Assembly: GCA_949710005.1 (NCBI GenBank)
Contig: OX453276.1
Coordinates: 9,817,553-9,881,552, forward strand
Direction: 5' to 3'
DNA from: Ricordea florida
Taxonomy: Eukaryota > Cnidaria > Anthozoa > Corallimorpharia > Ricordeidae
Length of the DNA stretch: 64,000 nucleotides
Part shown: piece by piece, positions 32,616 through 64,000 of the stretch
Layout: each line of letters starts with the position of its first letter
How positions within the stretch are numbered: the stretch's first letter is position 1
Program-made: the position numbers and the translations under genes
Notes under the pieces: generated by a model
The model's database searches: none
Seen by the model: only the letters and a program-made list of their open reading frames with translations
What the model was told of the DNA's origin: nothing

Positions 32616-32638
32616 TTTGTTTTGATTACATCATATTC

Positions 32639-32647
32639 ATCTTTAAA
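32639..32647 (-). promoter_or_regulatory. Late-type motif TTTAAAGAT, penton gene
   Basis: TTTAAAGAT on the minus strand, 24 bases before ATG 32615. Confidence 0.5.
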
Positions 32648-32691
32648 TCGAGCTTTGCTCGGGATTCGCCGTAATTTCTATAATCAAAACA

Positions 32692-45554: not shown

Positions 45555-45822
45555 AATTGCTTTTGTAAATATAGCCTAAACTTTAAATCAATTTTTTTAT
45601 GGTTCAATTATCTGTGTCCTAGAAATTTTCTTTTATTACTGCTTAGTATTCTACTGATGTGTGCTAGCATTAGCAGACTCACAAAACTTAATCGGTAAAA
45701 TATTTTCTGATTAAATCTCTGATTAAATCTCTGATTAAGTTTTGGTAAATAAATTTAGGTTACAAGCTAAAAAATGTCTGATTAAATTCCTGTGTCCCAA
45801 AACCGCAGTTTTATCACTCTCT
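45518..45822 (-). repeat. E1 right terminal inverted repeat
   Basis: Inverse of 30545-30849. The polymerase start codon is 268 bases from the terminus, exactly the distance of the opposite gene's start. The outermost base differs (A here, C at the left). Confidence 0.9.
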
Positions 45823-45826
45823 CTTA

Positions 45827-47347
45827 TTGAAACTGCCAGCGGCCACGTCAATTAATGAAACCAAGAAATTGAGAGACATTTACGACAAACTTGAATCTCA
45901 CGTACGAAGTCTCCACAATGTTGGCATTAACTCAGAGACGTACGGAAGCTTTCTTTCTCCTGTGATCATGTCGAAGATTCCAGAAGAGTTGAGAATCGCG
46001 ATCACGAGAGATCTTTCAACAGAGGAATGGGATTTGGAGCCTATGTTAGAGATTTTTCGAAAGGAATTACAAATACGCGAGAAGTGTCAATTTATTCCGG
46101 GACATGTCAGCACCCGAGAGCCCCGAACTAATTATCTGCCCAAGCGACACGCAACCTTTGAGCCATCATCGACGACATCTGCCCTCTTCACAGACGGAAT
46201 CCCTCAGGCACAACGGAGTTCTTGGTGTACGTATTGTAAAGGCCCACATCCCTCTTCGAATTGTACTGTGATGACCAATGTTGCAGCCCGGGAGCAGTTT
46301 ATTCGACAGAAAGGCAAGTGTTTTATATGTTTACGCTCCGGTCACGTGGCACGTCGATGTGTTAATGGAAAAAGCTGTCATCTCTGCGGTCAGAAGGGTC
46401 ATCATCCTTCCCTATGCGTGTCACTGGGGATATCAAACCGTAGCGTTCAACAATGGAAGGCCAGTGGCGAGGAAAGTCGAGAAACTCCGAATCTACCAGC
46501 CCATACTTCAACTACAAATATGTTCATCGGTGCAAAAAACAGCGTTCTCCTCCAAACGGCCAGAGCAAACATCTACAAACCAGATGATAATGACACTCCT
46601 GTCAACGCAAGGCTAATCTTTGACAGCTGTAGTCAAAGAAGTTACGTCACAGAGAGCCTACAGAGATTTCTCAATTTGCCAGTTTTGGGACGGGATACGC
46701 TACTCATTAAGACGTTTGGAGAGCCAATAGCAAAGCTAAGAGAGTGCGATACTGTGCAGTTGGCAGTAGAGTCAAAAGACGGAATGAAGATTTACGTCTC
46801 CGCGTATGTAGTACCCTTAATTTGTACGCCAGTGAGCAATCAAATGGTGGAATTCACGCAGACGCACTACCAGCATCTACAGAGTTTAGAATTGGCAGAT
46901 GGCACGCAAGGTACTGACGAGCTAAGCATCGACCTCTTAATCGGAGCCGATTTCTATTGGCAGTTCGTCACCGGAATCACTGTTCGTGGTCAAGAACCAG
47001 GCCCCGCGGCGTTATCTACCAGACTCGGCTATGTCTTATCTGGTCCAGTTGGAATTTCGCCTTCGAGTCCTGAAAATTCTATAGTCAACTTCACGAAGAC
47101 CCATGTCCTTGAGATTTGCACCTCTGTATATGATGAGAAGATAGCCCTTGATCAGGAGGTGAGACGGTTTTGGGATTTAGAGACTTTAGGGATCAAACAA
47201 GAAGAACCAACTGTCTATGAGAAGTTCATCGCAAATATTAAGCATAATGGGGATAGGTACGAGGTCAAGTTGCCCTTCAAGGAATTCCACCCAATTGTAC
47301 CAGACAACTATCAACTAAGCAAGAGAAGGATGGAAACACTCTTAAGA
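45827..47347 (+). pseudogene. BEL/Pao gag end, zinc knuckles and protease
   Basis: Continues gag after E1 with no start of its own (KLPAATSINETKKLRDIY). Cys/His knuckles CTYCKGPHPSSNC and CFICLRSGHVARRC followed by CHLCGQKGHHPSLC bind RNA. An aspartic-protease region follows, with active-site-like LIFDSCSQRSYV and a later LLIGADFYW. The frame runs to the E2 junction, where it would proceed into RT. The long open frame shows that this part decayed little before E2 inserted. It is non-functional because of the insertions. Confidence 0.8.
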
Positions 47348-47853
47348 TGATGATATGTAAGGGGGGTTCTGGCACATTTTCATTACGATTTCATTACGAT
47401 TTCATTTTAAGCGTGGTGCTAGCACATTTTGATGATCTGTGTACAAAGCTTATGTGAAATATACCAAACCTATGCAAAGTCTCGGCCAAGCCCCCGTAGT
47501 CAAGAGGGGCCGACAGGCGGAGCGAGCGGAGGGCGACTCTACCCCCAGAGGCAAAGTCTATGCAAAGTCTCTGGCAAGCGGGTGGGCACCCCTCCGCGAA
47601 ATTGTTAAGTTTCTGTTAATGATACAAAGCTGGTACAAAAAACTATTTTGAAATTGGTAACGGCTGGGATCTGACACATTTTATGAAACTGATACTAAGC
47701 CTATGTGAAACCCTCCCCAGAAATTTGATGATGAGGATCTGGCACATTCGAAAAAAATGATTTTCAAAAGAAATAAAATACCTATTTAAAAAGAAGAATC
47801 ATTACAAAAAATGGAACAAGAATTACGAAGATTAAATGTACCGCAACTAAAAT
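47348..47853 (+). repeat. E2 left terminal inverted repeat
   Basis: Inverse of 62993-63498 with rare mismatches. CTRRCACATT words occur at 47369, 47419, 47671 and 47739. A GC-rich block (about 47475-47605) contrasts with the AT-rich rest. CATTACGATTT is directly repeated at about 47381-47402. It extends 43 bases into the first gene. Confidence 0.9.
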
Positions 47854-48245
47854 TTATTGCAAAAGAGTTGAAAATTAATGGAAGGTCCAGAATGTTTAAA
47901 GATAATTTAATTAATGAGTTGGAAAAATTTACTGATGTGGATATTGATGAGTTAATTACAAAAGCTATTTTAATGTATAATTACTCCTGCGTACATGGGA
48001 TTAAAAAATATTTTTGTAAAGAATGTGGGGGATCACAAATATGTACTCATGGGAAAATAAAGTATCAATGTAAAGAATGCGGTGGATCACAAATATGCGT
48101 TCATAGGAAAAGAAAATCTTACTGTGTATTATGTGATGGGTCACAAATATGTTTTCATAACCATCAAAAAAGTTTTTGTAAAGAATGCGGAGGATCACAA
48201 ATATGTATTCATAATAAACAAAAGTATCATTGCAAAGAATGTTGA
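47811..48245 (+). CDS. E2 Cys/His-repeat protein with SAP-like start
   Basis: 144 codons. Residues 1-42 form a fuller SAP-like motif than in E1 (LNVPQLKFIAKELKINGRS). A short acidic helix follows, then five units such as ICTHGKIKYQCKECGGSQ. The third unit reads CVLCDGSQ, a small deviation. The start lies in the terminal repeat and is shared with the polymerase at the other end. An AT-rich hairpin follows the stop. Likely zinc- and nucleic-acid-binding; role unknown. Confidence 0.8.
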   Translation: MEQELRRLNVPQLKFIAKELKINGRSRMFKDNLINELEKFTDVDIDELITKAILMYNYSCVHGIKKYFCKECGGSQICTHGKIKYQCKECGGSQICVHRKRKSYCVLCDGSQICFHNHQKSFCKECGGSQICIHNKQKYHCKEC

Positions 48246-48252
48246 ACATTAT

Positions 48253-48282
48253 GTTATTAAACCCTTATTTTGGTTTCATAAC
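48253..48282 (+). terminator. Hairpin after E2 Cys/His gene
   Basis: GTTATTAAACC pairs with GGTTTCATAAC (10 of 11), starting 8 bases after the stop codon. Confidence 0.55.
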
Positions 48283-48355
48283 AGAAGAACTTAACGAAAT
48301 AGATATTTTTAAAAATGAATTTTAATTTAAAAGATAAAAGATAAAATAAAAAAAG

Positions 48356-48955
48356 ATGGAAGGTCTAACAATTCAAGAATTTATTGAAAATGGCGTAATT
48401 AAATTAAAGTATTTTAATGAAAAAGAATTGGAAATTGGTGATTTCACTGATTCAATTAATAAGGATTTGTTAAAAGTAATATCAAAAAATTATGGATTTT
48501 TAGATGAAGATAGTCTGGTTGATATTAAAATTAGATATTTTAATAAGAACAACGACGGTGAAAGGTTTGTCTATTATTTTGAAGATGATGTAATAGATTT
48601 TGATAAGGGTCTTATATTATTTGATGAAATTTATGAGTTATTAGTGGATAAAGCAAATTATACTTATGAAATGCGAAATAGGCAAAAATATTTTAGAAGA
48701 ACTTATATTGATGAAGATGATGATGATGATGATGATGATGATTATTATGCTGATAGTATGAATGATTTTATTGTTAGTTCAATTAAAATTACATTATATA
48801 AAAATGCACACAAGGTATTACACAAAAAGAAATTTTATAATGATTTGTATAATGATTTAATGGCCACAGCATGGCACCCATCTAGATATTTAGATTGGTG
48901 TATCGATTTTGTGGAATTAAGAGATTTGAAAGAACGTTGGGGCGAAGAAGATTAA
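48356..48955 (+). CDS. E2 acidic/Tyr-rich protein, unknown
   Basis: 199 codons, orthologue of 31266-31895. It contains a run of Asp residues encoded by a GAT repeat (about 48713-48741), which is absent in E1 and looks like repeat expansion. The conserved end ATAWHPSRYLDWC and ELRDLKERW is kept. The 30-base leader before the ATG (TTTAAAAGATAAAAGATAAA) also precedes the 84-codon gene at 53752. A hairpin follows. No enzymatic motif. Confidence 0.75.
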   Translation: MEGLTIQEFIENGVIKLKYFNEKELEIGDFTDSINKDLLKVISKNYGFLDEDSLVDIKIRYFNKNNDGERFVYYFEDDVIDFDKGLILFDEIYELLVDKANYTYEMRNRQKYFRRTYIDEDDDDDDDDDYYADSMNDFIVSSIKITLYKNAHKVLHKKKFYNDLYNDLMATAWHPSRYLDWCIDFVELRDLKERWGEED

Positions 48956-48969
48956 TATTATATAATTAT

Positions 48970-48999
48970 GTTATATAACTAAAGTAATAGTTACATAAC
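48970..48999 (+). terminator. Hairpin after E2 acidic gene
   Basis: GTTATATAACT pairs with AGTTACATAAC (10 of 11 Watson-Crick, one G-T), 14 bases after the stop codon, in the same position as 31919-31948 of E1. Confidence 0.55.
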
Positions 49000-49005
49000 A
49001 AAAAT

Positions 49006-49641
49006 TTATCTAAATCTTAAACTAAAAGTTATGGGAGAACCCCTAATATCAAGTTTTTCCCATTCATTGTCTAAGATAGTTAAATCAAAGTGGTTTATGA
49101 GGCTCTCATATTTTTGGACCGGAATTGCCGGATAATCCTTTGAGGGTATGTTTGCAAGTAGGTTTGATGGTGCGAGTTTCACAGGTTCTCCATATTTGGT
49201 GTTATTCATATATGACGACTTATTATCAACTAAACTACACATAAGCCTCAAAGGTTCTCTAATCTGTAAATTTATAGGGTATAATTTACCAGGATTTATA
49301 ACTTCAGGCACTCCTAAACCAACCGCTAATCCTCTAGAAAGTCTAATTTTATAGTTCTTATTTGAATAAAGATAGTCAACAGTATCACTCTCAATTATTG
49401 TTATCTTTTCCACGTCCGAATCATTAAGAAAGATTGATTGAATATTACAAAGAGAATATGTGCCGGGTTGAATTTTTATGATGACTTGATTCTTATCATT
49501 GAATAATGTCTGTTGGTCCTTGAAATTAATCAACTTTTTGGGCTTTAAATTACAATCCAGGAGCTGTATTTCCCGAAGATTTTTCAGAGGAGGATCTAAA
49601 TAAATTCTAGTTTCCGAATCGCGCATTGTAATACTGAACAT
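49006..49641 (-). CDS. E2 probable penton (minor capsid) protein
   Basis: 211 codons, same length as E1 (31980-32615), with a TCTAAAAAC motif at 49671-49663. Conserved blocks: ETRIYLDPPLKNLREIQLLD, GTYSLCNIQSIF, NPGKLYPINLQIREPLRL and the closing INHFDLTILDNEW ... FSLRF. Only 38 bases separate its ATG from the divergent Rpb7-like gene. The single-jelly-roll penton role is inferred from the beta-strand pattern and position. Confidence 0.5.
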   Translation of the reverse strand: MFSITMRDSETRIYLDPPLKNLREIQLLDCNLKPKKLINFKDQQTLFNDKNQVIIKIQPGTYSLCNIQSIFLNDSDVEKITIIESDTVDYLYSNKNYKIRLSRGLAVGLGVPEVINPGKLYPINLQIREPLRLMCSLVDNKSSYMNNTKYGEPVKLAPSNLLANIPSKDYPAIPVQKYESLINHFDLTILDNEWEKLDIRGSPITFSLRFR

Positions 49642-49662
49642 ATTTTTGATTAAATTATATTA

Positions 49663-49671
49663 GTTTTTAGA
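49663..49671 (-). promoter_or_regulatory. TCTAAAAAC motif, penton/Rpb7 divergent region
   Basis: Minus-strand TCTAAAAAC, 21 bases before the penton ATG 49641, inside the 38-base gap to the divergent Rpb7-like start at 49680. Confidence 0.45.
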
Positions 49672-49679
49672 TAAGGAAA

Positions 49680-50147
49680 ATGGAAACTAAAATAATTCAA
49701 AAGAGAATATATCTTGAACCCAAATATCTTGATAAAAATATTATGAGTCATTTATTGAGAACAATTGAAAAGAAATTAGAAAGAAAAGTTGATAAGGAAT
49801 ATGGGCATATTATTTCTGTGGAACAAATAATAAAAATTTTGCATAATGAAGATACTACTTTTCTTTTAGAAATTGAGGTGAAAACTTACAAGCCAAAAGC
49901 TAATCAAAAAGTTTACGGGGTAGTGTGCATGGTTTATGATCATGGTATTTTTGTTAATGTTTTTGACAAAGTAAAAACTTTAATCCCGCATATTTATATA
50001 AAAGATTATACTTTTGATGCTGCTTCCAATACATTTGAAAATAATAATAACAGAATTGGAATGGGCGATAAAATAAAAGTAGAAATAAAAGCAGTTAGAT
50101 TTAATGAAGGAGATTTTGAATGTATTGGAACATTATGTTTTGATTGA
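49680..50147 (+). CDS. Rpb7-like RNA polymerase subunit
   Basis: 155 codons from ATG 49680. The first half follows the Rpb7 tip domain (RIYLEPKYLDKNIMSHLL, then a Lys-rich helix and EYGHIISVEQI). The second half follows the S1/OB domain (KVYGVVCMVYDHGIFVNVF; FDAASNTFENNN; GDKIKVEIKAVRFNEGDFEC, ending IGTLCFD). Length is close to cellular Rpb7 (about 170). Rpb7 with Rpb4 forms the stalk of RNA polymerase II and binds emerging RNA; large DNA viruses encode versions. E1 has no counterpart. It is on the strand opposite to its virion-gene neighbours. Confidence 0.75.
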   Translation: METKIIQKRIYLEPKYLDKNIMSHLLRTIEKKLERKVDKEYGHIISVEQIIKILHNEDTTFLLEIEVKTYKPKANQKVYGVVCMVYDHGIFVNVFDKVKTLIPHIYIKDYTFDAASNTFENNNNRIGMGDKIKVEIKAVRFNEGDFECIGTLCFD

Positions 50148-50171
50148 TCTCAGGATTATGTAATGAAAACA

Positions 50172-51686
50172 TTAACGAAATAAAAACCAAGATAATGCTC
50201 CACCCAAAATCAAAAACAAAACAAGATTGGTTTGATGAGAATCCATGTAATTATTTTCTTTATTTGTTCCCGGTTCAGTTTTTGTTTCTGTTTTTGTTTT
50301 ATCGTGATTCGTACTTTGAAGCAAAACCTTTGATGTTCCTAAACTATTAGGTATTCCGACATTTTTTGTTTCAATATTTATTGAATTATTTACCCCAAAT
50401 TTCATATCTTCTGTTGCTATTTTTAGATTATTATTATACCCAACCACGCTCTCCGTGTTTATGATCATATTACTTGGCATCAACCAAACTCCTGGAGCAA
50501 CAGCTAAATCAAGTCGTAATTTAGTTTCCTGTACAGATTGTTGGTAATTTTGAACAGATTTAGAAATATCATTTACTTTAACAGAACTTTCAAATAAGGC
50601 TTTGAATTCATTTTGTGTTTCTATTGCACCGCCGCCGTTGCCATAAATTGGGTTTCTTGTATTAACTTGTGATCCTAATATGCAGTAAACAAAAGCCTCA
50701 GCGGATCGATTTAATCTTCCAAGCCCCGCTTTGGTGAGACCATGTCCTTCCGCAGGAATAAACCAAGCATATTTGAAATCACTAAATAGATCATTTCTGA
50801 TAAACGAGATTTTATTTCCATCTCCATCTTTATAACCTTCATCAGAAAATTTATTTTGTCCAGGCCAAGTATTTGCATCATGATCATAATTTCTTACAAT
50901 ATATAAATTTTCATTTCCACCCGAGCTGTAATAAATAAATATATCACCCAAACCATGATTTCTTCCGCCCTTCCACCTAAAGTCAGAATTATTACTAACC
51001 TCAAACTCTTTACACAATCGATTATATGCGACTTTATCATATTGATTATTTTTTATTGAAAAAGTTTGATCCTCGGGAAAATGCACACCCATTTCATATA
51101 ATATTCTTCTTATTGTAAAGTATATGTGAAACTTTATAAAACTGCTAATTACTTTGGGGTAATTTAGGCTTTCAAAAAGACTTATCCCGCAACCAGATGT
51201 TGCGCACCAAACCGCAAAGTTAAGTTGCTGGGGCCAATAACTAATATCAGGCTTACTCAACCATCTTTTGCATTCCTTTGCTGAATTAAATGTTACAACT
51301 TGTGATTTAAATATGTTTCTCATATTTGCAGTGAATTTCTTTTTATCTGTAACGTATATATCCAGTTCGGTCAGCATTTTTGTCACATCGTTTCCAAATT
51401 GATCAAAACTAGCACCAGGTATTGGATATGTTTCTCTCGTAAATGTTAAACTTTTGGGAAATGAATTTACCTTAACTTTATTTTCTACCCCCAAATCTTC
51501 CCATAATAATGTTTTCAAATTATTTGAGAGATTTGCAGTCCAAGTTTCCCCAGAAGGATCATCATCGGATATAATTGTTGTTCCATTAACTTTCCATTTA
51601 ATATATCCCCCAAATGGGTCATTCACAAATGAAAATTTATTTAGGTTAGCGTTTGGATATCGAGTTCTGAAATCATCAAATAACAT
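50172..51686 (-). CDS. E2 large conserved membrane-anchored protein
   Basis: 504 codons, ATG 51686, TCTAAAGAT at 51722-51714. Orthologue of 32692-34257 with the same CATSGCGIS core, the KFSDEGYKDGDGNKISF block, and a C-terminal transmembrane helix (LVLFLILGGALSWFLF). It lacks the 10-residue insert seen in E1 at the SDFR/WKGG junction. The linker before the helix is Lys/Thr-rich and poorly conserved. Probable virion surface or vertex protein; the family is not recognised. Confidence 0.75.
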   Translation of the reverse strand: MLFDDFRTRYPNANLNKFSFVNDPFGGYIKWKVNGTTIISDDDPSGETWTANLSNNLKTLLWEDLGVENKVKVNSFPKSLTFTRETYPIPGASFDQFGNDVTKMLTELDIYVTDKKKFTANMRNIFKSQVVTFNSAKECKRWLSKPDISYWPQQLNFAVWCATSGCGISLFESLNYPKVISSFIKFHIYFTIRRILYEMGVHFPEDQTFSIKNNQYDKVAYNRLCKEFEVSNNSDFRWKGGRNHGLGDIFIYYSSGGNENLYIVRNYDHDANTWPGQNKFSDEGYKDGDGNKISFIRNDLFSDFKYAWFIPAEGHGLTKAGLGRLNRSAEAFVYCILGSQVNTRNPIYGNGGGAIETQNEFKALFESSVKVNDISKSVQNYQQSVQETKLRLDLAVAPGVWLMPSNMIINTESVVGYNNNLKIATEDMKFGVNNSINIETKNVGIPNSLGTSKVLLQSTNHDKTKTETKTEPGTNKENNYMDSHQTNLVLFLILGGALSWFLFR

Positions 51687-51713
51687 CTTATTCTTTATGT
51701 TTCAAATAATGTG

Positions 51714-51722
51714 ATCTTTAGA
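51714..51722 (-). promoter_or_regulatory. Late-type motif TCTAAAGAT, E2 504-codon gene
   Basis: TCTAAAGAT on the minus strand, 27 bases before ATG 51686, the same spacing as its E1 orthologue. Confidence 0.55.
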
Positions 51723-51782
51723 TCTTTTAAGAATAAGATGTAAAACAATTGCAACCAACTTCGGTTTTCTCATATACAAGTT

Positions 51783-52403
51783 TTAATGTCCTTTCCCTCC
51801 GGTAAGTTCTTTCAATAGATCTTCGCGAACTTCCCTCCTTATCATACCCATGTCTAAGTTTTTTTCTGTATCTTTTCTGAATTTTTGTCGTATTTCTTGT
51901 TTCAGTTTTTGAAACTTTTCCAATTCTGCTAAAATTATGGAAAATTCTTGATCGGATATAACATTATCTTTCAAAGCTTTTGAGACCAAATCACTAATGG
52001 TGTTTAATTTTGATTTTGCAATTGCAACGGTTTGTTCGTGTTTACTAACTTTACCAGAAAGACTTTTAGAGGCAAAACCAAATCCAATCGACAAACCCCC
52101 AAAAACACCCCCAACCACACCCAAAGGCACACCAACAATAGCACCAAAACCCGTGAGGGAAGTTCCTAATCCGCTTGCTGATAGAAGAACTGAAATAAAT
52201 CCCCCAGAAACACTAATTTTTGTACATATTCCTCTTGCTCTATTATATTTTTTCCTAACTTCTTCGTAATGTTTAATTTCCTTCTCGAGATTTTGCAATA
52301 CTTCACTCGATTTTTGTAGCCTGAAATTAATCAAATTATCTCCGCTTTGTGTTTGGAAATTATTATTAGGTAATTGAGGATAAATTCCATTGTATTCGCC
52401 CAT
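51783..52403 (-). CDS. E2 Gly-rich hydrophobic coiled-coil protein
   Basis: 206 codons from ATG 52403, chosen over the longer non-ATG open frame because it matches the E1 start and has TTTAAAGAT at 52437-52429. The same architecture as E1: coiled coil, Gly-rich hydrophobic block (GAIVGVPLGVVGGVFGGL), and a second helical region with basic tail ending GGKGH. The 3' end of the coiled-coil membrane gene lies 39 bases upstream. Confidence 0.7.
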   Translation of the reverse strand: MGEYNGIYPQLPNNNFQTQSGDNLINFRLQKSSEVLQNLEKEIKHYEEVRKKYNRARGICTKISVSGGFISVLLSASGLGTSLTGFGAIVGVPLGVVGGVFGGLSIGFGFASKSLSGKVSKHEQTVAIAKSKLNTISDLVSKALKDNVISDQEFSIILAELEKFQKLKQEIRQKFRKDTEKNLDMGMIRREVREDLLKELTGGKGH

Positions 52404-52428
52404 ATTGTATTTTACTGAACGGCATGAT

Positions 52429-52437
52429 ATCTTTAAA
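52429..52437 (-). promoter_or_regulatory. Late-type motif TTTAAAGAT, E2 Gly-rich gene
   Basis: TTTAAAGAT on the minus strand, 25 bases before ATG 52403, just beyond the stop of the upstream gene. Confidence 0.5.
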
Positions 52438-52441
52438 TTTG

Positions 52442-53659
52442 TTACTTTCTCTTCCTTTTTATACTTGTTCCTCCTTTTAGTCGGTCCACAAAATACAGAA
52501 CTACAGCCATTATCAAAAGCCAAGCATTCTCACCTAAAAATCCAATAACCTGTCCTGCGGTTTTGAAAAGAAAGCTAACTATTGCGCCAACCATTCCTGG
52601 TAATATTTCTCCAAGTTTTTTACCTATAGTTTTTAATCCATTTCCCAAACCTTTACCTAATTTTGTTAGACCTTTGGAAAGATTAGAAACTATAACCCCA
52701 ATTACTAAACCAGCTGCGCTTAAAATAGCAAATACTGTAAATCCATACTTTTTGAAGATGTACTTTATTCGCTCTCGTAATGGTAAATTTTTAAGTATTT
52801 CATCTTTTCTGCTCTCAATGTCCGACAATTGTTCTCCTATTTGCTCTTTCAATTTGTCGTTCTCTGCTTTTAGACGATCCCTGCTCTTTTCTAGCTTTTG
52901 TAAATTTAACTTATCCTTCTTATATTTATCAATCTCCTCTTTGTACAATTTTACTTCCTCCAAAATTTTCTCCGCTTGTGTTTTTAATTCTATGTTCTGT
53001 TTTACGGTTTGGTCAAAAAGGGATTTATTCTCTGCCTTTTTTTCCTGTTGTTTCTCAATGAATAATCGAAGCTCTTTTTCTCTCTCCACATATCCTTCAA
53101 TCTCTTCCGTTCGTGTTGCCAAAAGCGCGTCTATTCCCTGTACTGCGGATCGCAATTCATTATGTTTTTCTTTTTCTTCATTTAAAATATTCAACATGGT
53201 TTCATAATCAACTCCGAGGAATTTTCTCATTGTTTTTGGTAAATCTTCTATTTTGATATTTGAATCTTTATCGATTATTGTGTGCCACTTGTTATCCACC
53301 CTATTACTCATTTTTCCCTCTATAATACCATCTTTACCAAATCTTATAATAAGTTCGCTATTATTTGGATCATAATTTGGAAGATACCGTTTTAGTTGTT
53401 GTCTTGCATCTGTCATTCTGTCGTATTCCTCATACCTTTCTGTAAAAATATTTTTTAGCGTTCCCTCTTGCCATTTATTCCGTTTTGTTTCTTCCATATA
53501 TTCTGAATAACCAGGATAGTCCTGATCAAAAGATGTGTTTGTTTTTGGTATTTCATAATTTTCTCCATCCCAATCCCAGTCATCATTATCATCATCCTCA
53601 TCAACATCATCGTCATCATTATCTCCTGGTAAATCTTTTAATGGTATATATTCCGCCAT
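52442..53659 (-). CDS. E2 coiled-coil membrane protein, intact
   Basis: 405 codons, ATG 53659, TCTAAAGAT at 53691-53683. Acidic N-terminus (DDDDVDEDDDNDDWDWDG), a globular Tyr/Asp region, a long coiled coil at about 150-310 (Lys/Glu heptads), then two hydrophobic segments (FAILSAAGLVIGVIVSNL; LLIMAVVLYFV) and a basic tail KRKRK. It serves as the reference showing that the E1 copy is broken by a single stop. Likely a virion membrane or scaffold component. Confidence 0.75.
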   Translation of the reverse strand: MAEYIPLKDLPGDNDDDDVDEDDDNDDWDWDGENYEIPKTNTSFDQDYPGYSEYMEETKRNKWQEGTLKNIFTERYEEYDRMTDARQQLKRYLPNYDPNNSELIIRFGKDGIIEGKMSNRVDNKWHTIIDKDSNIKIEDLPKTMRKFLGVDYETMLNILNEEKEKHNELRSAVQGIDALLATRTEEIEGYVEREKELRLFIEKQQEKKAENKSLFDQTVKQNIELKTQAEKILEEVKLYKEEIDKYKKDKLNLQKLEKSRDRLKAENDKLKEQIGEQLSDIESRKDEILKNLPLRERIKYIFKKYGFTVFAILSAAGLVIGVIVSNLSKGLTKLGKGLGNGLKTIGKKLGEILPGMVGAIVSFLFKTAGQVIGFLGENAWLLIMAVVLYFVDRLKGGTSIKRKRK

Positions 53660-53682
53660 GATTTTTTACTCAACAGTAAGAA

Positions 53683-53691
53683 ATCTTTAGA
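53683..53691 (-). promoter_or_regulatory. Late-type motif TCTAAAGAT, E2 coiled-coil gene
   Basis: TCTAAAGAT followed by TTCTTACTGTTGAGTAAAA on the minus strand, 23 bases before ATG 53659, nearly identical to the E1 copy. Confidence 0.6.
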
Positions 53692-53751
53692 TCCCTTGGA
53701 GCTGATTAAAAGTAAAAATTGATTTAAAAGATAAAAGATAAAATAAAAAAA

Positions 53752-54006
53752 ATGGACGAAAATATAGCAAAAAGACTTTTATGGGGGTCTATACTTAAAG
53801 ATTTTGATGAGGAAGAAGGGGAAAAAAGAAAAAAATTTGGCTTATTATATGATTTAGCTGTTGGAACAAAAGATAATAAAGAAAAAGAAGAAAAACTAAA
53901 TTTTTTATTTAATTTGGTTAAGAATATTGATGAATTTGAAGAAAAAGAAAAAAATGTGGTAAAAATTATGATAACTGAGGAATTATATGGTATACGAATA
54001 CTTTAA
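53752..54006 (+). CDS. E2-specific 84-codon charged protein
   Basis: Small, Lys/Glu-rich and helical (EEEGEKRKKFGLLYDLAVG). It has a leader almost identical to that of 48356 and a following hairpin, so it looks like an independent plus-strand transcription unit captured or duplicated as a module. E1 has only 39 bases at this position. No domain recognised; small size and charge suit a regulatory protein, but that is a guess. Confidence 0.6.
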   Translation: MDENIAKRLLWGSILKDFDEEEGEKRKKFGLLYDLAVGTKDNKEKEEKLNFLFNLVKNIDEFEEKEKNVVKIMITEELYGIRIL

Positions 54007-54011
54007 TTATG

Positions 54012-54052
54012 TTATATAACTTATTTTGATTGACTTATTACAAGTTATATAA
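54012..54052 (+). terminator. Hairpin after E2 84-codon gene
   Basis: TTATATAACTT pairs perfectly with AAGTTATATAA over 11 bases around a 19-base loop, just after the stop codon. It also lies at the 3' end of the convergent 132-codon gene and could serve both. Confidence 0.55.
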
Positions 54053-54056
54053 TAAT

Positions 54057-54455
54057 TTATAAAAATTTACTGGCCGCGTAACCTAAACCTAACATTCCAG
54101 CTCCAACATATACCATTTCCCCAGTCTTTTGGTCATCGTTTGGTTTGTAATAATCAGTGAATTTGGGTTCTGTCATTTGCCCGTACAATTCAAAAGCCTG
54201 ATTTGTAGTAGAAATATTTTTTGATGCCTGATATTTTTCATCTTTTTTCTTCATTTTCCAATCAAGCATTTTTTGTCTTTTTTCCTGATATGCTTCGTAA
54301 TCTCTTTGATATTTTTCCATTGCTTTATCGTGTCGTATTTTTTCTGCATCAACGCTGCGTCCTGATAAATATTTTGCAAGATAATTTCCGCCAGTAAATG
54401 CCGTTGCATTCAATATAGCCCCGCCAATCATCATTCCTATTGATGCTAATGCCAT
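54057..54455 (-). CDS. E2 small membrane protein, TAATG-coupled
   Basis: 132 codons from ATG 54455, whose A is the last base of the preceding gene's TAA stop. Hydrophobic start (IGMMIGGAILNATAFTGG), charged central helix (DAEKIRHDKAMEKYQRDY) and a hydrophobic end (VGAGMLGLGYAASKFL), as in E1. The stop-start overlap suggests reinitiation after the 72-codon gene rather than a separate promoter. Function unknown. Confidence 0.7.
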   Translation of the reverse strand: MALASIGMMIGGAILNATAFTGGNYLAKYLSGRSVDAEKIRHDKAMEKYQRDYEAYQEKRQKMLDWKMKKKDEKYQASKNISTTNQAFELYGQMTEPKFTDYYKPNDDQKTGEMVYVGAGMLGLGYAASKFL

Positions 54456-54673: not shown

Positions 54674-54711
54674 AATTTTTTACTGTATCATTGAGAAACT
54701 TTTAAATGACT

Positions 54712-55155: not shown

Positions 55156-55192
55156 TGTTATTTAGATGCAACAAATAAGTTTTTAGATCTGT

Positions 55193-55746: not shown

Positions 55747-56373
55747 TTAAATCACCTTGGGAATCTCTAAATAGCAATTAAACGGATATCGCAAACTTAA
55801 ACATAACCTAGAATATTTTTCAGTTTTCAGGAGATGCATAAACTTTTTACCCAAGTCATAATCCAAATCACTGCCATAATCTTCGAAAAACATTTTCATA
55901 CCTTTCTGCGAAGGATTATGAAAAGTAACAACGCAGGCTACATTTTCTCGGAATGGTTTTGCTATTGATGTCAATTGCTGAGTTAGAACCCAAACCGATA
56001 AACCATGATGCCTTCCGGAGAATGCCAAATCAATAAACTTATTCGATCTTTTCTTCAGATCGGAGGATACGGCGCAATCATCTAGAATTATTAATGTATT
56101 CGTGCCAGAGAATAAAATTTGGCAATCATTTAACAATTCATTGATCTCATCTGAATTACTTGCGTCTGGCGATAATACATAAAAATGTTCATCTCCTCGA
56201 GCAAAATTATGATAAGTTTTATTTTTAGAATAGGTTGGGCAAATTAAGACAATATATTCAAAAACTTTCCGGAATGGTCCGCGGAGCTGTTCAATTAGGT
56301 ACTTTGTTTTTCCACAATTTGTGGGCCCTGTTATTATACAGTGGAATGGGATTTTATCTCGTAAATCTTCCAT
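55747..56373 (-). CDS. E2 A32-like genome-packaging ATPase
   Basis: 208 codons, ATG 56373, TCTAAAAAC motif at 56404-56396. Walker A GPTNCGKT (16-23), Walker B LIILDDC, and the SGRHHGLSVWVLTQQLTS block. It is one of the best conserved proteins between the elements. It would power DNA entry into the capsid and sits between the capsid gene and the helical protein gene, as in E1. Confidence 0.9.
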   Translation of the reverse strand: MEDLRDKIPFHCIITGPTNCGKTKYLIEQLRGPFRKVFEYIVLICPTYSKNKTYHNFARGDEHFYVLSPDASNSDEINELLNDCQILFSGTNTLIILDDCAVSSDLKKRSNKFIDLAFSGRHHGLSVWVLTQQLTSIAKPFRENVACVVTFHNPSQKGMKMFFEDYGSDLDYDLGKKFMHLLKTEKYSRLCLSLRYPFNCYLEIPKVI

Positions 56374-56407: not shown

Positions 56408-57649
56408 TCAGTACTTGATTGATCTCAAACTCGAATTCATAATCTCCATCATTGCGTCCGCCACGACGAACATATGGCAAGTTATGGTTCCAGATCCGCT
56501 CTGTTTTCGTTTAATTTCTACTTTTACTCCGTCATGAGTATTATTTAGAGCAAGGCCTCCTCCATGAATTCTATTATCTGGATGAGTTCTAGTATCAACC
56601 CAAAGAGCAAACTTGTCAGCGTAAAATTCTTTTTCTTTCAATGAAATTTGTAAACCATCGTCCCGATGAAATCTTTTTTTCACGGATTCCCAAAGATCGG
56701 AAGGAATCATTCCTCTAGAGTATATTCTATTTGGAACTCCGTCTACATCAATTTCTACGGAGGAAATACCCGGGTTATAAAAGTTTTCAGAATCCCTTGC
56801 TCCCGAAGCTTGAGGAACTAAGAACAAAAATAATACCCCCGTCATTGATCTTCTTGGGAGATTTATATGTTGATTAATAACCCCATCTCCCCCAATGGAA
56901 AATGTAAAAGTTTTGTGCAGAGTAATATTCTCGTAAAAGAATCCTTTTCCCACTTGATAAGTTGATTGCGCTTCGCGCGCTAAATATTCGCTAGAAATAG
57001 AAGAATATTCTAACTCTAAGTTTTTGATTGAATATGATGGCGCTTTTGTTATATCAGAAAAAATAAGAATATTATTAACAGAGGCAAGAGTGAGCTCAAA
57101 TATGAGATGATTTTCTAAGGCTTTTGGATAAAAAACTCCATGATCATTTAGAATAGGATGATTTAATGGTATTCTGTACTTTGTACCATGGATATTAGCA
57201 AGGGCAACTTCTTTCACATCTTGTGTTTTTTTATCTCCCGCGTTTGTTCTGATTTTCCTAATATTTAGTGAGGAAATACCCTGTTTTAATCTATCCTCGC
57301 GCTCTTCTTCGGTTAAGAATAAATCATGATATGTTTGAAATAAATCATATCTTTGGGTATCTTGCAATGTCTCTCCCCCGAAAAGAACTTTCATTCTGTT
57401 TACAAGATTACAGCCTAAATTATTCACAACTGTATTATTAGCATGCCCCTCAACATCCAAATCAAACATTAGAGATACACTTCCGGGCACAATCACCAAA
57501 TTCTCTGCTAGTTTTGGAATATTTATATATAATGTTTCCCCCGGACTGGCTGTGGATGGATTCAGAGTAATACGATTCAATGTTGATTCTGCTTTTAAAC
57601 CAAATGGTTCTTTGGGAATTCTATTTGGGTTAATTTTTCCAGACGTCAT
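56408..57649 (-). CDS. E2 major capsid protein, double jelly roll-like
   Basis: 413 codons, ATG 57649, a TTTAAAGG motif at about 57683-57676. Same ordered blocks as E1: VSLMFDLDV, VLFGGETLQDT, NHPILNDHGVFYPKAL, LELEYSSISSEYLARE, VDGVPNRIYSRGM and a final MEIMNSSLRS. Substitutions are scattered while the length is unchanged, as expected for a constrained structural protein. The 59-codon gene and then the integrase lie upstream. Confidence 0.7.
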   Translation of the reverse strand: MTSGKINPNRIPKEPFGLKAESTLNRITLNPSTASPGETLYINIPKLAENLVIVPGSVSLMFDLDVEGHANNTVVNNLGCNLVNRMKVLFGGETLQDTQRYDLFQTYHDLFLTEEEREDRLKQGISSLNIRKIRTNAGDKKTQDVKEVALANIHGTKYRIPLNHPILNDHGVFYPKALENHLIFELTLASVNNILIFSDITKAPSYSIKNLELEYSSISSEYLAREAQSTYQVGKGFFYENITLHKTFTFSIGGDGVINQHINLPRRSMTGVLFLFLVPQASGARDSENFYNPGISSVEIDVDGVPNRIYSRGMIPSDLWESVKKRFHRDDGLQISLKEKEFYADKFALWVDTRTHPDNRIHGGGLALNNTHDGVKVEIKRKQSGSGTITCHMFVVADAMMEIMNSSLRSIKY

Positions 57650-57888: not shown

Positions 57889-58881
57889 ATGAGCAACGAA
57901 AATATTCTCTCAAAAATATATTATTCAACTGAAGGATATTGGAAAGGATATTCTGCAATTCCTAAATTGGCTGAGAAATCCAAAGTAAGTGAAAATGAGG
58001 TAAAACAATGGTTGCAGAAACAGGCAATATGGCAAATCTATCTTCCCCCTCCAAAGTATATTCCAAGACCACATTGGACTTTGGATAAACCAAATCAGAT
58101 TCACCAAGCAGATTTATTATTTTTACCGCATGATAGAGTTGGAAGAAAAACATATAAATATGCGTTAGTTGTGGTTGATATCGCCTCGAGATATAAAGAT
58201 GCTGAGCCATTAACCTCAAAAGAAAGTCGAGAGATATCAGAAGCTTTTACAAAAATATATTCTAGAAGATTAAAATACCCCGAAACATTAATGGTTGATC
58301 CTGGGAAAGAATTTATGGGAGAAGTTAGTAAACTCATGAATTACCATAATGTGAAAATACAGAGAAGCGAAGCCGGTAATCATAGAGCTCAAGCATTTGT
58401 GGAAAACGCAAATAGAATATTAGGAGAAAAATTATTTAGCCATCAATATGCGCAGGAAATGATCAGTGATGCCCGATCAAGAGTATGGATGAAAAGATTA
58501 CCAGCTATTCTAAAAACTTTGAATAATACAAAAACGAGAATAACCGGTAAAGAGCCTGATGAGGCTATAAAACTGAAAGAGTTTGATATTAAACCCAAAA
58601 ATTATCAGCGGGTTGTTGGGCTTGATGAAGTTAGATTGCCCCCAGTGGTTAAAGTTAGATATCTATTATTTCCCGGTGAACTTGAAGGAGGAGAACGAAG
58701 AAGGGCTACAGATCCTATTTGGAGTCTCAAAGTTTATGATATTTCAAAAAGTATGATTACGCCTAATCAGCCGGTTTTATATTATTTAACTGACGGGCCT
58801 AGACGAGGTTTTGTAAGGGAAGAATTACAAGTTATACCTTATGATACTGTGTTGCCGCCTGATTCTGTTTTGGTGAGATAA
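57889..58881 (+). CDS. E2 retroviral-type integrase
   Basis: 330 codons, ATG 57889. Core Asp in HQADLLF, Asp in LMVDPGKEF and Glu in AFVENANR with the same spacing as E1; the C-terminal region (DPIWSLKVYDI) is SH3-like. It has no GC-rich insert at the SDARS position. Its last 43 bases overlap the convergent polymerase gene, an overlap identical in length to E1. It would explain the TAAGA duplication. Confidence 0.9.
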   Translation: MSNENILSKIYYSTEGYWKGYSAIPKLAEKSKVSENEVKQWLQKQAIWQIYLPPPKYIPRPHWTLDKPNQIHQADLLFLPHDRVGRKTYKYALVVVDIASRYKDAEPLTSKESREISEAFTKIYSRRLKYPETLMVDPGKEFMGEVSKLMNYHNVKIQRSEAGNHRAQAFVENANRILGEKLFSHQYAQEMISDARSRVWMKRLPAILKTLNNTKTRITGKEPDEAIKLKEFDIKPKNYQRVVGLDEVRLPPVVKVRYLLFPGELEGGERRRATDPIWSLKVYDISKSMITPNQPVLYYLTDGPRRGFVREELQVIPYDTVLPPDSVLVR

Positions 58882-61800
58882 TGTCCATATGGCAGAGTAT
58901 GTTTTCCATCTTTACAAATTATTCTCTTATCATCATCAGCTGATAGTGCAACTTTATTGACAGTTTCAGTATAAACAAAATGTTTGTAACTTCTTATTAC
59001 CTGCATCTCCCTCATCTGCTTTACTTTACTTTCCAAACATTCCTTGTAATCATTAAAGCTTATTGTCTTTTTTACTACTGATGACTTTACCCCCTTGTCC
59101 TTTTTTATCTCTTCACCCCCATCCAACCTGTACGAGTAAAGCTTAGCTCGTAGGCCAACAAATTCGGTGATAATTTTTCCACCAGCCTCATCTTTAAACT
59201 TACCAATTACTTTTTTGTTTTTATCAGTCCAAATACCCGATCCATGTTTTTTAGGAAAATTACTCGTATCAAACCTTTCCATCACATCTAGGGCAATATC
59301 CTTATAGAAATCCTCGGTTTCTATATCATATACAAGACTATCTGTATCTGTCATAAGTAATTTAGCTTTTTCACCATATTTCGGTTTAATATAATTATAA
59401 TGAAAATCATACATCATTGCTTTACTTATATCTAAAATACACATTCCTAAGTAAATAGGTTTGTTGTATTTTATATGTGTTTTATTCATATGTACAGCCA
59501 TAAGATTTTCAGAAAAAATAGTTCTTCGATTATAGTTAGCTTTTGTTATTAATTTTCTTGCTTCTTTCTCATTATTAACCAATCTTATATCAACCCTTTT
59601 TCTAAGATTTTCCATTGTTTTACCAAATACAGAGTTGTTCATGAGTTTGAAGAAATCTTTTTCAAACTCATTCTTTGCTTCCGCCCTGAGTTTGGTGTTC
59701 AAATCTATGTAAGATTTTAACCATTTTGACTCTTCAAATTTAATTCCTCTGTGAATCTTTGTTACTTCTAATCCTAGACTTTCATAAAGTTTTAATGTCT
59801 TATGATGAACAACATAATTTTTCTTATTGTTAAGATTTGGTATTAGTTTCTCAACCCTATTTACCTTAATTCTTTCCGGAGCAATCGGATAATCACTATG
59901 TAAATCATGAAGATGTCGCGGATATTCTAAATCAACCTCAACTATACATGGAATATTTCTCCAATTTGCTTTCTCATTTTCACTCATCCATTTTAATCCA
60001 TGAGTTGGTAATGCTTCACTCATTGCCCCGCCATATAAATTGTTTGCGTCGAGATATTCTATGTAATTTACCACCATTTTAGGATCATATTCTTTCATGT
60101 ATTTGTTATTAGCTTTAGCATATCTGTTTGATATCTGAGATATACCCCCTCTAACACCTTTCTCAATCATAATTAGCATATCAATGTCATTTATCATCTC
60201 TAATTGAACCTTAGTTTTTTTCAACATAGCGTCCCAAGCAAGCCCTGGTGCTGTATAATACCAAGCAGGATCTAATCTATAGGCATTTTGACAAACATCT
60301 CTAAAGTTTTCAAATACATCAGCTAATAATAACACATCAGACTTGAGATATAGATCAAGGTAATCTCGCATTGTTTTCATATTAAATGTTCCCCATACCT
60401 TTTTAGCATGTTCATAATCTTCATCTGAAATATCTTCGTCTCTAAGTTTCGAGTAAAACTCTTTCTTCGGTGGAAGTTGGGTTTCGTTTAATTTATCAAA
60501 ATCATCAAGCCAATCATATGGGAATACTCCCTTTCTCATTAATAACTTTAATTCTTCACCTTCAAAATACTTTGTAGTTTCATGTAGGTTTTTATCTGTC
60601 GGATTAAGACACCTCCCTTTTATTTCACCTTTACAAACGTCGCACTTTCCGCATTTAGTAAGATTGCCGGACAAATTATCAAGGCTGGATGGCATAAATT
60701 TTAATGAATCTATGAACCTGATATCCCTTATAACATCTTTCATCTCCCCGCTTTTTTTATCTTTGAAGGTATCAACCACAATCTCTTTTGAGAAAGAAAT
60801 ATACTTTTCCTCATTATTAGGTATAAGTTTTATTTTACCTTCTGTTTTTGCAAGATTATTAATAAATAGATGGGAATCATATCCTGATAAATTGTGAATT
60901 ATAACGGGGAAGAATTTTGGGATCTTATAATTTAAATTGCAATCCTTATGTGCTGCACCTCTGTACTTTCCTGTAAGATGGCAATGATCTATTACCTTAT
61001 CTTTATCCAATTCTTTCTCACAGATATGACAATGAGTTGCGTTTTCATAGTTTATTTTTTCATCTTCTGTCATATTCTTCTTATTAAACTTTTTGAATCT
61101 TTTTACATTATAACTAATGCATTTTTTATAAATTTCCTTAAATTCTTTCTCTAGATATTCCACAAATTTCTGTGCAACATCATCTTCGGGTGATTCAGCA
61201 GTATATCTATAAAATCGGGATTTGCATATTTTTTCATTAAAACTCTTAATATAACATCCGAATGCAACTGGTTTGTGTGCCTGATATTTATTAGTATAAC
61301 TCTTATTTTTATCAAGCAGACCCATTTGTTTTATTTTGTTCAAAACACACTCAAAGTCAGCGAATGCTACAAAAGGCACTCTCATTTTTTTCACAAAATT
61401 TCTAAAAGAAAGAAAACATGGGCTGCCATCTTCATTTTTTAGCATATCAATCCTTACTTCATTGTACAAAAAACAATATCCTTCATGCTTTTCTAATGAT
61501 CTTTTTAAGTGAAAAGGACTCAAACAATTATCACAAAAGTACAACTTACATTTACGTTTAGTAACTTGCCTGCATATAAGTGCGCTAATATTCTTTATTA
61601 AAACGAAGTGTTTCTTTGGTTCTTCATCTTCTGTTTCTTCTGTCAATAAAAGTAATCTGATCAATTTAAATCCTCGTTTACTACTTCTTTTTATAGGATA
61701 TACCCCTATTTTCTCATCATATCCATATATAGCAATATCATAATCATTTTGGTTTTCAAAATTAACAATATCTTGAATTGTGCTCGGGAAATTAATTCCA

Positions 61801-63035
61801 TCCCAATTAAAATTCTTTGATTGTTCTTTCAATTCTTTAGTTATTCTTTGTGGATTTTTAACGGCTGGATAAACTGCGCGTGATACACACCACTTGAAAC
61901 ATTCATCATCATTATAATTCTGTGGATTAATAATCGCATTCCTGTTTAACAATTCTTTTGGTAATGGAATATAAGATCCACCCAAAAGCGGAACAAAACG
62001 ATCAATGAAAATGTCAAAAAATAGTACTTTTTCGAATATCCAACCAGACCCATTATTCATAAAATTTTCAAATAATACAAGTTGTTGTTTTGTTAATCTA
62101 TCAAATAATTCTGATAAATCTGTTGCCTCAAGAACAATTTCTGATTTTTCAGAAGGAAAATTAGCATCGCAGTATTCAAATATTTCTATTTCATTTTTAA
62201 ATATTTTTATTTTGAATCTACATGCAAATATAAATTTAACCTTCAATGATTTTTGTGATTCAACTCTCTTTCTAATTAAATCCATAACTTTTGGTTTTAT
62301 TTTATGTAGGAATGTCTTTTCATCATTATTTTCATTTCCTTCAATCCTATAGCTTATATAATTACCATTAATGGCTGATTCATATTCTCTTGGCGTGAAA
62401 TCTTCCACATTCTCATTTCTTTTTGTTTTTGGTCTTGCCCCCTTTCTTTTTGGTGGTTTTATTTCTTTGGGCTTATTTACTTTTTTGTATCTTTCTATAA
62501 ATTTTTTAGCTAATTCTTCTGTTTTATTTTTTGCTTTTTCTGGAATGTACGGTTTCACAAAATTCCAAAACTTGTTCAATACATTTCCCAAAAAGGGTGT
62601 TTGTTTTGTTTTTGGTTTGGGTGGTGATATATATTTATTAATATTTATTCTAGGTTGATTTGGTGGGGGTGGGCCTGGAGGAGTTCCCGGCCTAATTATA
62701 TCTGGTGACCCGGGCGGTGTTCCGGGAATTGGTGGGGGAATAGTTAAAGGTGGTAAATTTGTTTGTCTTCTTATCCTAATTGGTGGCGGGTTAGTATCCG
62801 GAATTGGAAGAGGTAAATTTGGTTGATTTATTGGCCTCATTGGCTTATTACGTAGCTCACCAACAATTCCAGCAATATTATCAACTATTTCCCGAATATT
62901 ATTAGTTATTTCGGGTATATTAACCAATGCTCCAATAAGTTCTGCTTTATTAAACGCCGATCGTCCACGAATATTATACCATCTAACTAAAGATTTTAGT
63001 TGCGGTACATTCAATCTTCGTAATTCTTGTTCCAT
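58839..63035 (-). CDS. E2 protein-primed family-B DNA polymerase
   Basis: 1,398 codons, intact. SAP-like start (LNVPQLKSLVRWYNIRGRS), Pro-rich region, conserved helix (YIPEKAKNKTEELAK), the ECFKWCVSRAVYP block, a C2H2-like motif (CDNCLSPFHLKRSLEKHEGYC, about 500-520), exonuclease FADFEC (about 561), HNH-like HCHLTGKYRGAAHKDC (about 680-695), HNLSGYDSH (713), motifs YLDANNLYG (997), NNSVFGKT (1138), TDTDSLVY (1231) and KLYSY (about 1300). It lacks the Cys-rich insert of E1. Start within the terminal repeat. Confidence 0.9.
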   Translation of the reverse strand: MEQELRRLNVPQLKSLVRWYNIRGRSAFNKAELIGALVNIPEITNNIREIVDNIAGIVGELRNKPMRPINQPNLPLPIPDTNPPPIRIRRQTNLPPLTIPPPIPGTPPGSPDIIRPGTPPGPPPPNQPRININKYISPPKPKTKQTPFLGNVLNKFWNFVKPYIPEKAKNKTEELAKKFIERYKKVNKPKEIKPPKRKGARPKTKRNENVEDFTPREYESAINGNYISYRIEGNENNDEKTFLHKIKPKVMDLIRKRVESQKSLKVKFIFACRFKIKIFKNEIEIFEYCDANFPSEKSEIVLEATDLSELFDRLTKQQLVLFENFMNNGSGWIFEKVLFFDIFIDRFVPLLGGSYIPLPKELLNRNAIINPQNYNDDECFKWCVSRAVYPAVKNPQRITKELKEQSKNFNWDGINFPSTIQDIVNFENQNDYDIAIYGYDEKIGVYPIKRSSKRGFKLIRLLLLTEETEDEEPKKHFVLIKNISALICRQVTKRKCKLYFCDNCLSPFHLKRSLEKHEGYCFLYNEVRIDMLKNEDGSPCFLSFRNFVKKMRVPFVAFADFECVLNKIKQMGLLDKNKSYTNKYQAHKPVAFGCYIKSFNEKICKSRFYRYTAESPEDDVAQKFVEYLEKEFKEIYKKCISYNVKRFKKFNKKNMTEDEKINYENATHCHICEKELDKDKVIDHCHLTGKYRGAAHKDCNLNYKIPKFFPVIIHNLSGYDSHLFINNLAKTEGKIKLIPNNEEKYISFSKEIVVDTFKDKKSGEMKDVIRDIRFIDSLKFMPSSLDNLSGNLTKCGKCDVCKGEIKGRCLNPTDKNLHETTKYFEGEELKLLMRKGVFPYDWLDDFDKLNETQLPPKKEFYSKLRDEDISDEDYEHAKKVWGTFNMKTMRDYLDLYLKSDVLLLADVFENFRDVCQNAYRLDPAWYYTAPGLAWDAMLKKTKVQLEMINDIDMLIMIEKGVRGGISQISNRYAKANNKYMKEYDPKMVVNYIEYLDANNLYGGAMSEALPTHGLKWMSENEKANWRNIPCIVEVDLEYPRHLHDLHSDYPIAPERIKVNRVEKLIPNLNNKKNYVVHHKTLKLYESLGLEVTKIHRGIKFEESKWLKSYIDLNTKLRAEAKNEFEKDFFKLMNNSVFGKTMENLRKRVDIRLVNNEKEARKLITKANYNRRTIFSENLMAVHMNKTHIKYNKPIYLGMCILDISKAMMYDFHYNYIKPKYGEKAKLLMTDTDSLVYDIETEDFYKDIALDVMERFDTSNFPKKHGSGIWTDKNKKVIGKFKDEAGGKIITEFVGLRAKLYSYRLDGGEEIKKDKGVKSSVVKKTISFNDYKECLESKVKQMREMQVIRSYKHFVYTETVNKVALSADDDKRIICKDGKHTLPYGHYLTKTESGGNTVS

Positions 63036-63498
63036 TTTTTGTAATGATTCTTCTTTTTAAATAGGTATTTTATTTCTTTTGAAAATCATTTTTTTCGAAT
63101 GTGCCAGATCCTCATCATCAAATTTCTGGGGAGGGTTTCACATAGGCTTAGTATCAGTTTCATAAAATGTGTCAGATCCCAGCCGTTACCAATTTCAAAA
63201 TAGTTTTTTGTACCAGCTTTGTATCATTAACAGAAACTTAACAATTTCGCGGAGGGGTGCCCACCCGCTTGCCAGAGACTTTGCATAGACTTTGCCTCTG
63301 GGGGTAGAGTCGCCCTCCGCTCGCTCCGCCTGTCGGCCCCTCTTGACTACGGGGGCTTGGCCGAGACTTTGCATAGGTTTGGTATATTTCACATAAGCTT
63401 TGTACACAGATCATCAAAATGTGCTAGCACCACGCTTAAAATGAAATCGTAATGAAATCGTAATGAAAATGTGCCAGAACCCCCCTTACATATCATCA
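62993..63498 (-). repeat. E2 right terminal inverted repeat
   Basis: Inverse of 47348-47853. The polymerase ATG is 463 bases from the terminus, exactly matching the left gene. The GC-rich block and the CTRRCACATT words are repeated here in inverse order. Confidence 0.9.
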
Positions 63499-64000
63499 TA
63501 AGAAGACTCTCTTCTGAGCCTCAAATCCTCAAACACTATGATGAAGTAATCAAGGATCAACTACGAAACGGAATCGTGGAAATTGTCACTCAAGGAAAGG
63601 AATTGGGTGCGGGCAAGGTACATTATCTCCCGCATAGAGAAGTCATTAGGATGGACAAACAAACTACTAAGATCCGCGTTGTTTATGACGCCTCTACGAA
63701 GTGAAATGGACCAAGCCTCAACGACTGCCTGTATGCGGGACCACCTCTCACCCCTCTAATTCTTGAAGTCTTAATCAGGTTCCGAGCTCATGCCGTTGCA
63801 CACACCGCTGACATAGATAAGGCTTTCTTGAACGTTGCGATTGCACCAGAGCACCGTGAATATCTTCGGTTCCTGTGGATTGATGATATTCTCAAGGACG
63901 ACCCTCAATTACTTGTGATGCGTTTTGCAAGAGTAGTCTTTGGAGTTAGTTTAAGTCCTTTTCTTCTGAATGCAACTATCCGCTTCCATCTGGACACCTA
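63499..64000 (+). pseudogene. BEL/Pao reverse transcriptase, start, partial
   Basis: Continues the BEL/Pao frame after E2: ILKHYDEVIKDQLRNGIVE, GKVHYLPHREVIR, IRVVYDAS, LNDCLYAGPPL and the motif-A-type ADIDKAFLNVAI, in the order of Pao-type RT. A TGA at 63702-63704 interrupts between the two central blocks. It runs off the window edge. Confidence 0.8.

Follow-up and report, generated by a model that had tools for sequence, protein, structure and literature searches.

An Rpb7-like RNA polymerase stalk subunit gene carried by a subset of Polintons in the genome of Ricordea florida

Polintons are usually thought to borrow the transcription of their host. We analyzed here a window of 64,000 nucleotides (nt) from the corallimorpharian Ricordea florida (assembly GCA_949710005.1, contig OX453276.1, positions 9,817,553 to 9,881,552 of the forward strand; the source genome amounts to 538 Mb in 48 contigs), in which one Polinton, E2 (47347-63499), carries a gene for an Rpb7-like RNA polymerase stalk subunit. 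A related Polinton, E1 (30546-45821), does not carry it at the equivalent place. The gene lies at 49680..50147 on the plus strand, as an uninterrupted open reading frame (ORF) of 155 codons, from ATG to TGA, encoding 155 amino acids. Both Rpb7 domains that the original prediction had read in this ORF were recovered by Pfam, each above its cut-off. Indeed, the tip domain (SHS2/Rpb7-N, residues 1-70, 49680..49889, plus strand), which shows strands and a helix in the predicted model, gives an SHS2_Rpb7-N match at residues 10-53 (E 1.4e-5, 25.6 bits for a cut-off of 24.8), and the S1/OB domain (residues 71-140, 49890..50099, plus strand) an S1 match over its whole length (E 4.7e-6, 27.3 bits for a cut-off of 22). 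Using the single sequence against the PDB, 16 of the 17 matches up to E 10 were Rpb7/RpoE-type subunits (best E 7e-4), and the profile match between the Polinton protein and eukaryotic RNA polymerase II (Pol II) RPB7 reached E 2.9e-18. We also looked for an unrelated OB-fold protein that would match better; in both profile and structure comparisons, the Rpb7 fold spans the whole chain and ranks ahead of the other OB-fold proteins. The tip domain reached a mean pLDDT (predicted local distance difference test) of 94.2 in the model built from a diverse alignment and of 67.9 when the alignment held close copies only, and the chain stops right behind the OB domain. By profile and by model, it is thus well supported that this protein is a member of the RPB7/Rpo7 stalk subunit family, with a predicted binding to the polymerase core. 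Rpb7 is a stalk subunit of the polymerase, with an OB domain believed to touch the nascent RNA (passages of PMC10881513).

The Polinton setting announced for this gene was borne out. E2 is bounded by terminal inverted repeats of 507 bp, identical at 506 of 507 positions (47347..47853 on the plus strand and 62993..63499 on the minus strand), and TAAGA is found on both of its outer sides (47343-47347 and 63499-63503) as a short target duplication; that of Polintons is usually given as 6 bp. The element encodes a retroviral-type integrase (rve, 57889..58881, plus strand, Pfam E 2.3e-9), an A32-type packaging ATPase (55747..56373, minus strand, Pox_A32 E 1.2e-11), and a major capsid protein candidate (56408..57649, minus strand), whose Capsid_N match (E 0.0011, 19 bits) is under the cut-off of 24. 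The sole Pfam match of a large ORF of 1398 amino acids (58839..63035, minus strand) is Endonuclease_7; we take it to be a putative DNA polymerase B on account of a DTDS motif spotted by eye in its sequence. By Pfam scans, no catalytic polymerase subunit was recognized among the 13 other ORFs of E2, three of which gave matches below cut-offs only. The left end of E2 adjoins a retroelement-like ORF (45827-47350), of zinc-knuckle type by eye. In E1, whose capsid protein is 74% identical to that of E2, the terminal repeats measure 304 bp and are identical at 304 of 304 positions, and no clear target duplication was seen beside them in the parts inspected (30520-30560 and 45805-45850). Near the left end of both elements, tandem repeats of 54 nt (30884-31202 and 47978-48242) encode a repeated cysteine-rich CGGSQIC pattern, and repeats resembling it are known from giant viruses.

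Inside E2, the Rpb7 gene is flanked by two ORFs on the minus strand that gave no Pfam match, i.e., a left neighbor of 211 amino acids (49006..49641) and a right neighbor of 504 amino acids (50172..51686). A divergent intergenic stretch of 38 nt (49642..49679) separates the left one from the gene. The flanking ORFs are 530 nt apart in E2, gene included, versus 76 nt in E1, where the equivalent slot (32616..32691) is empty, as had been noticed from the letters of the window.

We then searched the same genome for further copies and found the Rpb7-like gene at at least 201 loci, on contigs C1-C16. These comprise 150 loci matched along the protein and 51 loci, out of the 150 rows of a search with the N-terminal domain, known by this domain only; four rows of the latter search were removed from the count as host genes. 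The loci L051 and L052 are presumably the host RPC8 and RPA43 genes. An internal stop was met in only one of the 150 protein-matched rows. We opened 30 loci with 1.5-kb flanks, and in 30 of 30, E2's own included, the gene sits between homologs of the two neighbor ORFs, with the same divergent arrangement on its left side and without stops in the parts of the neighbors that were seen. Over these loci, the identity to E2 is 56-100% for the left neighbor, 61-100% for the right one, and 92-100% for the Rpb7 protein, a contrast inflated by the choice of the 30 loci as the best Rpb7 matches. This better conservation of the Rpb7 sequence suggests exchange between elements, a stronger constraint, or both. 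At two loci, L018 and L029, the Rpb7 proteins are 94% and 92% identical to E2's while the left neighbor is just 56% identical, a sign of exchange between elements.

The constraint was estimated on 50 loci, namely the 30 best matches (E2's copy included) and 20 others picked across the identity classes of the 150 rows. The median ratio of nonsynonymous to synonymous substitution rates (dN/dS) lies between 0.23 and 0.37 depending on the dS band, and single pairs range from 0 to 0.70. These values come from 1219 of the 1225 pairs, which are not independent of each other, the bands starting at a dS of 0.02 and six pairs falling outside them; moreover, the rows were scored in a best-first order, which favors intact copies.

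The presence of the gene is patchy among closely related elements. From 6183 first-look capsid candidates, we scored 101 capsid genes, and a Rpb7 locus was found within 15 kb of 11 of them, at a distance of 6.5-8.1 kb and always on the same side. The 90 others have none of the 201 loci within 15 kb. Six of these 90 were opened; they display homologs of both neighbor ORFs, again without stops in the parts seen, separated by 43-64 nt. The gene thus behaves as a clean present-or-absent module. These counts bear out the recent gain or loss that had been proposed for E2 and E1. The 101 scored capsid genes are all full length, without stops, and at least 93% identical to E2's capsid gene product, and a genome with 6183 first-look candidates may hold very many young elements.

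To trace the origin of the gene, we collected relatives with protein profiles. The family profile returned 44 proteins at E 0.1 or better, and a broader one gave 86 with E values of 0.001 or lower. These relatives come from large sequence collections that we read as mostly metagenomic, and some of the virus-like ones sit on contigs of 202, 116, and 106 kb. The host possesses an RPB7 of its own (L053), encoded elsewhere in several exons that reach 95% identity to human, and it is on this ground that we call the host animal-like. A tree was built from 73 rows. Fourteen of them are of Polinton type (the query, 10 copies from its own genome, and three ENA proteins) and form one group (100/100), which is nested in a virus-like group of 65 rows (99/99), apart from five cellular RPB7s (95/86). 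The deep part of this tree is weakened by the long branch to archaea and by several long rows. When the Polinton rows were constrained to group with the pair of animal RPB7s, the topology was rejected (approximately unbiased (AU) test, p 5.8e-13). A clade uniting the Polinton rows with the complete nearest set of 13 rows (P0006-P0017 and P0019) was neither recovered nor rejected (p 0.392).

Diagnostic residues were examined as well. Among the 47 columns invariant in four cellular RPB7s, those kept in more than 80% of the rows number 9 for the 14 Polinton-type rows and 7 for 51 virus-like rows. The FGP motif (F18, G19, and P20, human positions) and the G-x3-P-x2-G loop (G57, P61, and G64) are found in none of the 14 Polinton-type rows. 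F18 and P20 are also absent from all 51 virus-like rows, of which 2% keep G19. Concerning the choice left open by the original prediction, between a capture from the host and a giant-virus origin, the phylogeny leads away from the animal host and, more tentatively, toward a giant-virus-like source.

We also compared the predicted model with predicted viral proteins using Foldseek, which gave 31 matches at E 0.001 or better. They comprise 18 named nucleocytovirus proteins, 11 proteins without a name, and two phage proteins resembling ribosomal S1. The named matches belong to mimivirus-like, iridovirus, poxvirus, and asfar-type viruses, and several are annotated as Rpb7 or RPO18. Those annotated Rpb7 or Rpb7-like include proteins of Rhinella marina erythrocytic-like virus, Tetraselmis virus 1, Bodo saltans virus, and African swine fever virus (ASFV); poxvirus RPO18-type subunits and iridovirus proteins without a functional name are found as well.

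Another line of evidence is given by the sequences upstream of the genes. The motif TYTAAARA begins within 80 nt of the ATG in 17 of 25 listed genes (8 of 12 in E1 and 9 of 13 in E2). It is placed at 30-36 nt in 12 of these 17 genes and takes the TCTA form in 12 of 17. In 500 dinucleotide shuffles, the mean number of motif-bearing genes was 0.84 for E1 and 1.18 for E2, with maxima of 4 and 5. The gene list excludes the first ORFs (30813 and 47811), whose upstream sequence is common to the polB ORFs, and E1 and E2 are not two independent samples because they are related elements. Next to the Rpb7 gene, the motif (TCTAAAAA, 49664..49671, minus strand) faces the left neighbor ORF; read on the Rpb7 strand as TTTTTAGA, it was found within the 60 nt that precede the ATG of the Rpb7 gene at 48 of 50 loci. 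It also faces the left neighbor in the six opened loci that are devoid of the gene. By analogy, TYTAAARA resembles the TCTA late promoter of mavirus and Cafeteria roenbergensis virus (CroV), and could serve as a promoter. Indeed, a TCTA in an AT-rich context has been described both as the promoter of mavirus and as the late promoter of CroV, its giant virus (passages of PMC8547959), and such a match between virophage and giant-virus promoters has been interpreted as the use of the virus's late transcription machinery (passages of PMC10945749).

Two functional ideas had been put forward for the captured subunit, i.e., a partial control over the host Pol II or a cytoplasmic transcription with a helper virus. 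We favor, tentatively and with slightly less than an even chance of its being right, a virus-type RPB7 of nucleocytovirus-like source that would serve as a stalk subunit for the polymerase of a helper virus rather than for Pol II. A subset of the Polintons of this genome would have acquired the gene from this source and not from the animal host, and the gene would afterwards have been passed around or lost among elements. Its partner would be the polymerase of a large DNA virus, either co-infecting or activating, and the protein would place its tip domain on the polymerase core and its OB domain on the nascent RNA. In this way, it would promote transcription of the element's genes, with TYTAAARA serving as the promoter some tens of nucleotides ahead of the start codons. 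Since no catalytic polymerase subunit was recognized in E2, the protein should act on another's enzyme. Moreover, because the loss of cellular-invariant tip residues is shared with the virus-like relatives, a fit to a virus-type polymerase core is expected. The element would thereby be expressed when a virus-type polymerase is present, as proposed for virophages (passages of PMC10945749).

Several observations weigh against this helper-virus reading. No helper virus was found. Eight scans of a viral contig collection (seven with Rpb7 queries and one with the capsid pair) yielded no relative, although some patterns matched; such viruses may be scarce in this collection, and we conclude nothing from these scans. 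A Polinton RPB7 should be superfluous for a helper, because mimivirus and ASFV already own one, and the 90 scored elements devoid of the gene manage without it. The similarity to the viral proteins matched by fold is distant (identity of 9-21%, template modeling (TM) score by query of 0.41-0.76), and among solved structures the cellular Pol II RPB7 comes nearest, ahead of the chains of ASFV and vaccinia. In the tree, the virus-like clade is made of unnamed proteins, named giant-virus sequences not being among the rows. A clade uniting the Polinton rows and the five cellular RPB7s was not recovered, but with an AU p of 0.0565 it is not rejected at 5%. As the contigs of the virus-like relatives are known by their length only, the nucleocytovirus source is an inference. 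Finally, the motif is missing from 8 of the 25 genes (Rpb7, both integrases, E2's capsid, E1's polB ORF, and three others), and a sequence as short as TYTAAARA might instead be TATA-like and serve the host Pol II.

In a rival explanation that we judge rather unlikely, the Polinton protein replaces or competes with the host RPB7 on the nuclear Pol II and biases the enzyme to Polinton promoters. Here, the replaced residues of the tip domain, which we take to touch the polymerase core, a tip loop about six residues shorter, and closest relatives that are virus-like and not cellular all speak against a role on the host enzyme. Of the two functional ideas, Pol II control thus comes out weaker, and the helper-virus one draws some support from the upstream motif, in spite of the helper that was not found. 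The same phylogenetic and motif evidence would also fit a decoy, an explanation that we regard as less probable still. According to it, an incomplete stalk would occupy the giant virus's polymerase and weaken the virus, to the benefit of the element and the host. The final residues of cellular RPB7 (yeast row) have indeed no counterpart in the Polinton protein, and giant viruses are often inhibited by virophages (PMC10945749). On the other hand, the constraint and the rarity of stops are equally compatible with any selected role.

The Rpb7 fold might also have been reused for RNA binding outside transcription, for instance in mRNA fate or for virion RNA. S1/OB domains are found in other RNA-binding proteins and RNase R chains match residues 71-153, but the tip domain is also kept across the Polinton copies and well predicted, and we hold this reuse for improbable. 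As for a chance ORF or a decayed passenger without function, the 90 related elements devoid of the gene would be its argument. A chance ORF is excluded because the gene occurs at so many loci of the same genome, and the single row with a stop and the low dN/dS refute a passenger as well, so that this explanation is hardly credible.

Coming back to the helper-virus reading, a polymerase subunit closer to those of large DNA viruses than to that of the host suggests that the transcription of some elements may employ a virus's polymerase. A virus-like subunit, open at about 200 loci and in one fixed slot at all 30 loci opened with flanks, would mean that part of the Polinton family has an interest of its own in transcription. 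Combined with a mavirus-like motif close to the start codons, it allows one to test whether the Polintons of animals are dependent on large DNA viruses or antagonize them. A bolder proposal, possible in our opinion though doubtful, is that the Polintons of an animal genome amount to virophages under another name. They would respond to a large DNA virus of the same animal, whose cytoplasmic polymerase would transcribe them using promoters of TCTA type. Roughly one in ten of the closest copies (11 of 101) would supply its own stalk subunit, acquired from a virus of this kind, and thereby secure the polymerase for itself.

In the open-access literature, we found no report of an RNA polymerase subunit gene in a Polinton. 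Mavirus and the endogenous mavirus-like elements are integrated and possess a TCTA-type upstream motif (passages of PMC8547959), as do E1 and E2; they have a protist host and a known giant virus, whereas the host of E2 is animal-like and no helper was found for it. The nucleocytovirus RPB7s (mimivirus L376, ASFV D339L or vRPB7, poxvirus RPO18) have the two-domain Rpb7 fold in common with the Polinton protein, with a low sequence identity between the fold matches and the latter. Mimivirus encodes Rpb7 (L376) along with its other subunits (passages of PMC3058096), RPB7 is named a hallmark gene of Megaviridae (passages of PMC5127864), and it appears in the gene table of the expanded Mimiviridae (passages of PMC3620924). 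The nucleocytoviruses encode catalytic polymerase subunits too, unlike E2 as far as its Pfam scans tell. Moreover, ASFV vRPB7 carries an additional domain at its C terminus and lacks an RPB4 partner (passages of PMC10881513), whereas the Polinton protein ends after the OB domain. With the eukaryotic Pol II RPB7, the Polinton protein shares the domain order and the fold, at about 21% identity in the structure alignment; it differs by the loss of the FGP and tip-loop positions and by a single ORF instead of the multi-exon gene of the host. Lastly, the rve integrase, the A32 ATPase, the capsid candidate, the inverted repeats, and the short target duplication are common to E2 and to animal Polintons/Mavericks, and it is the RNA polymerase subunit that sets E2 apart from them.
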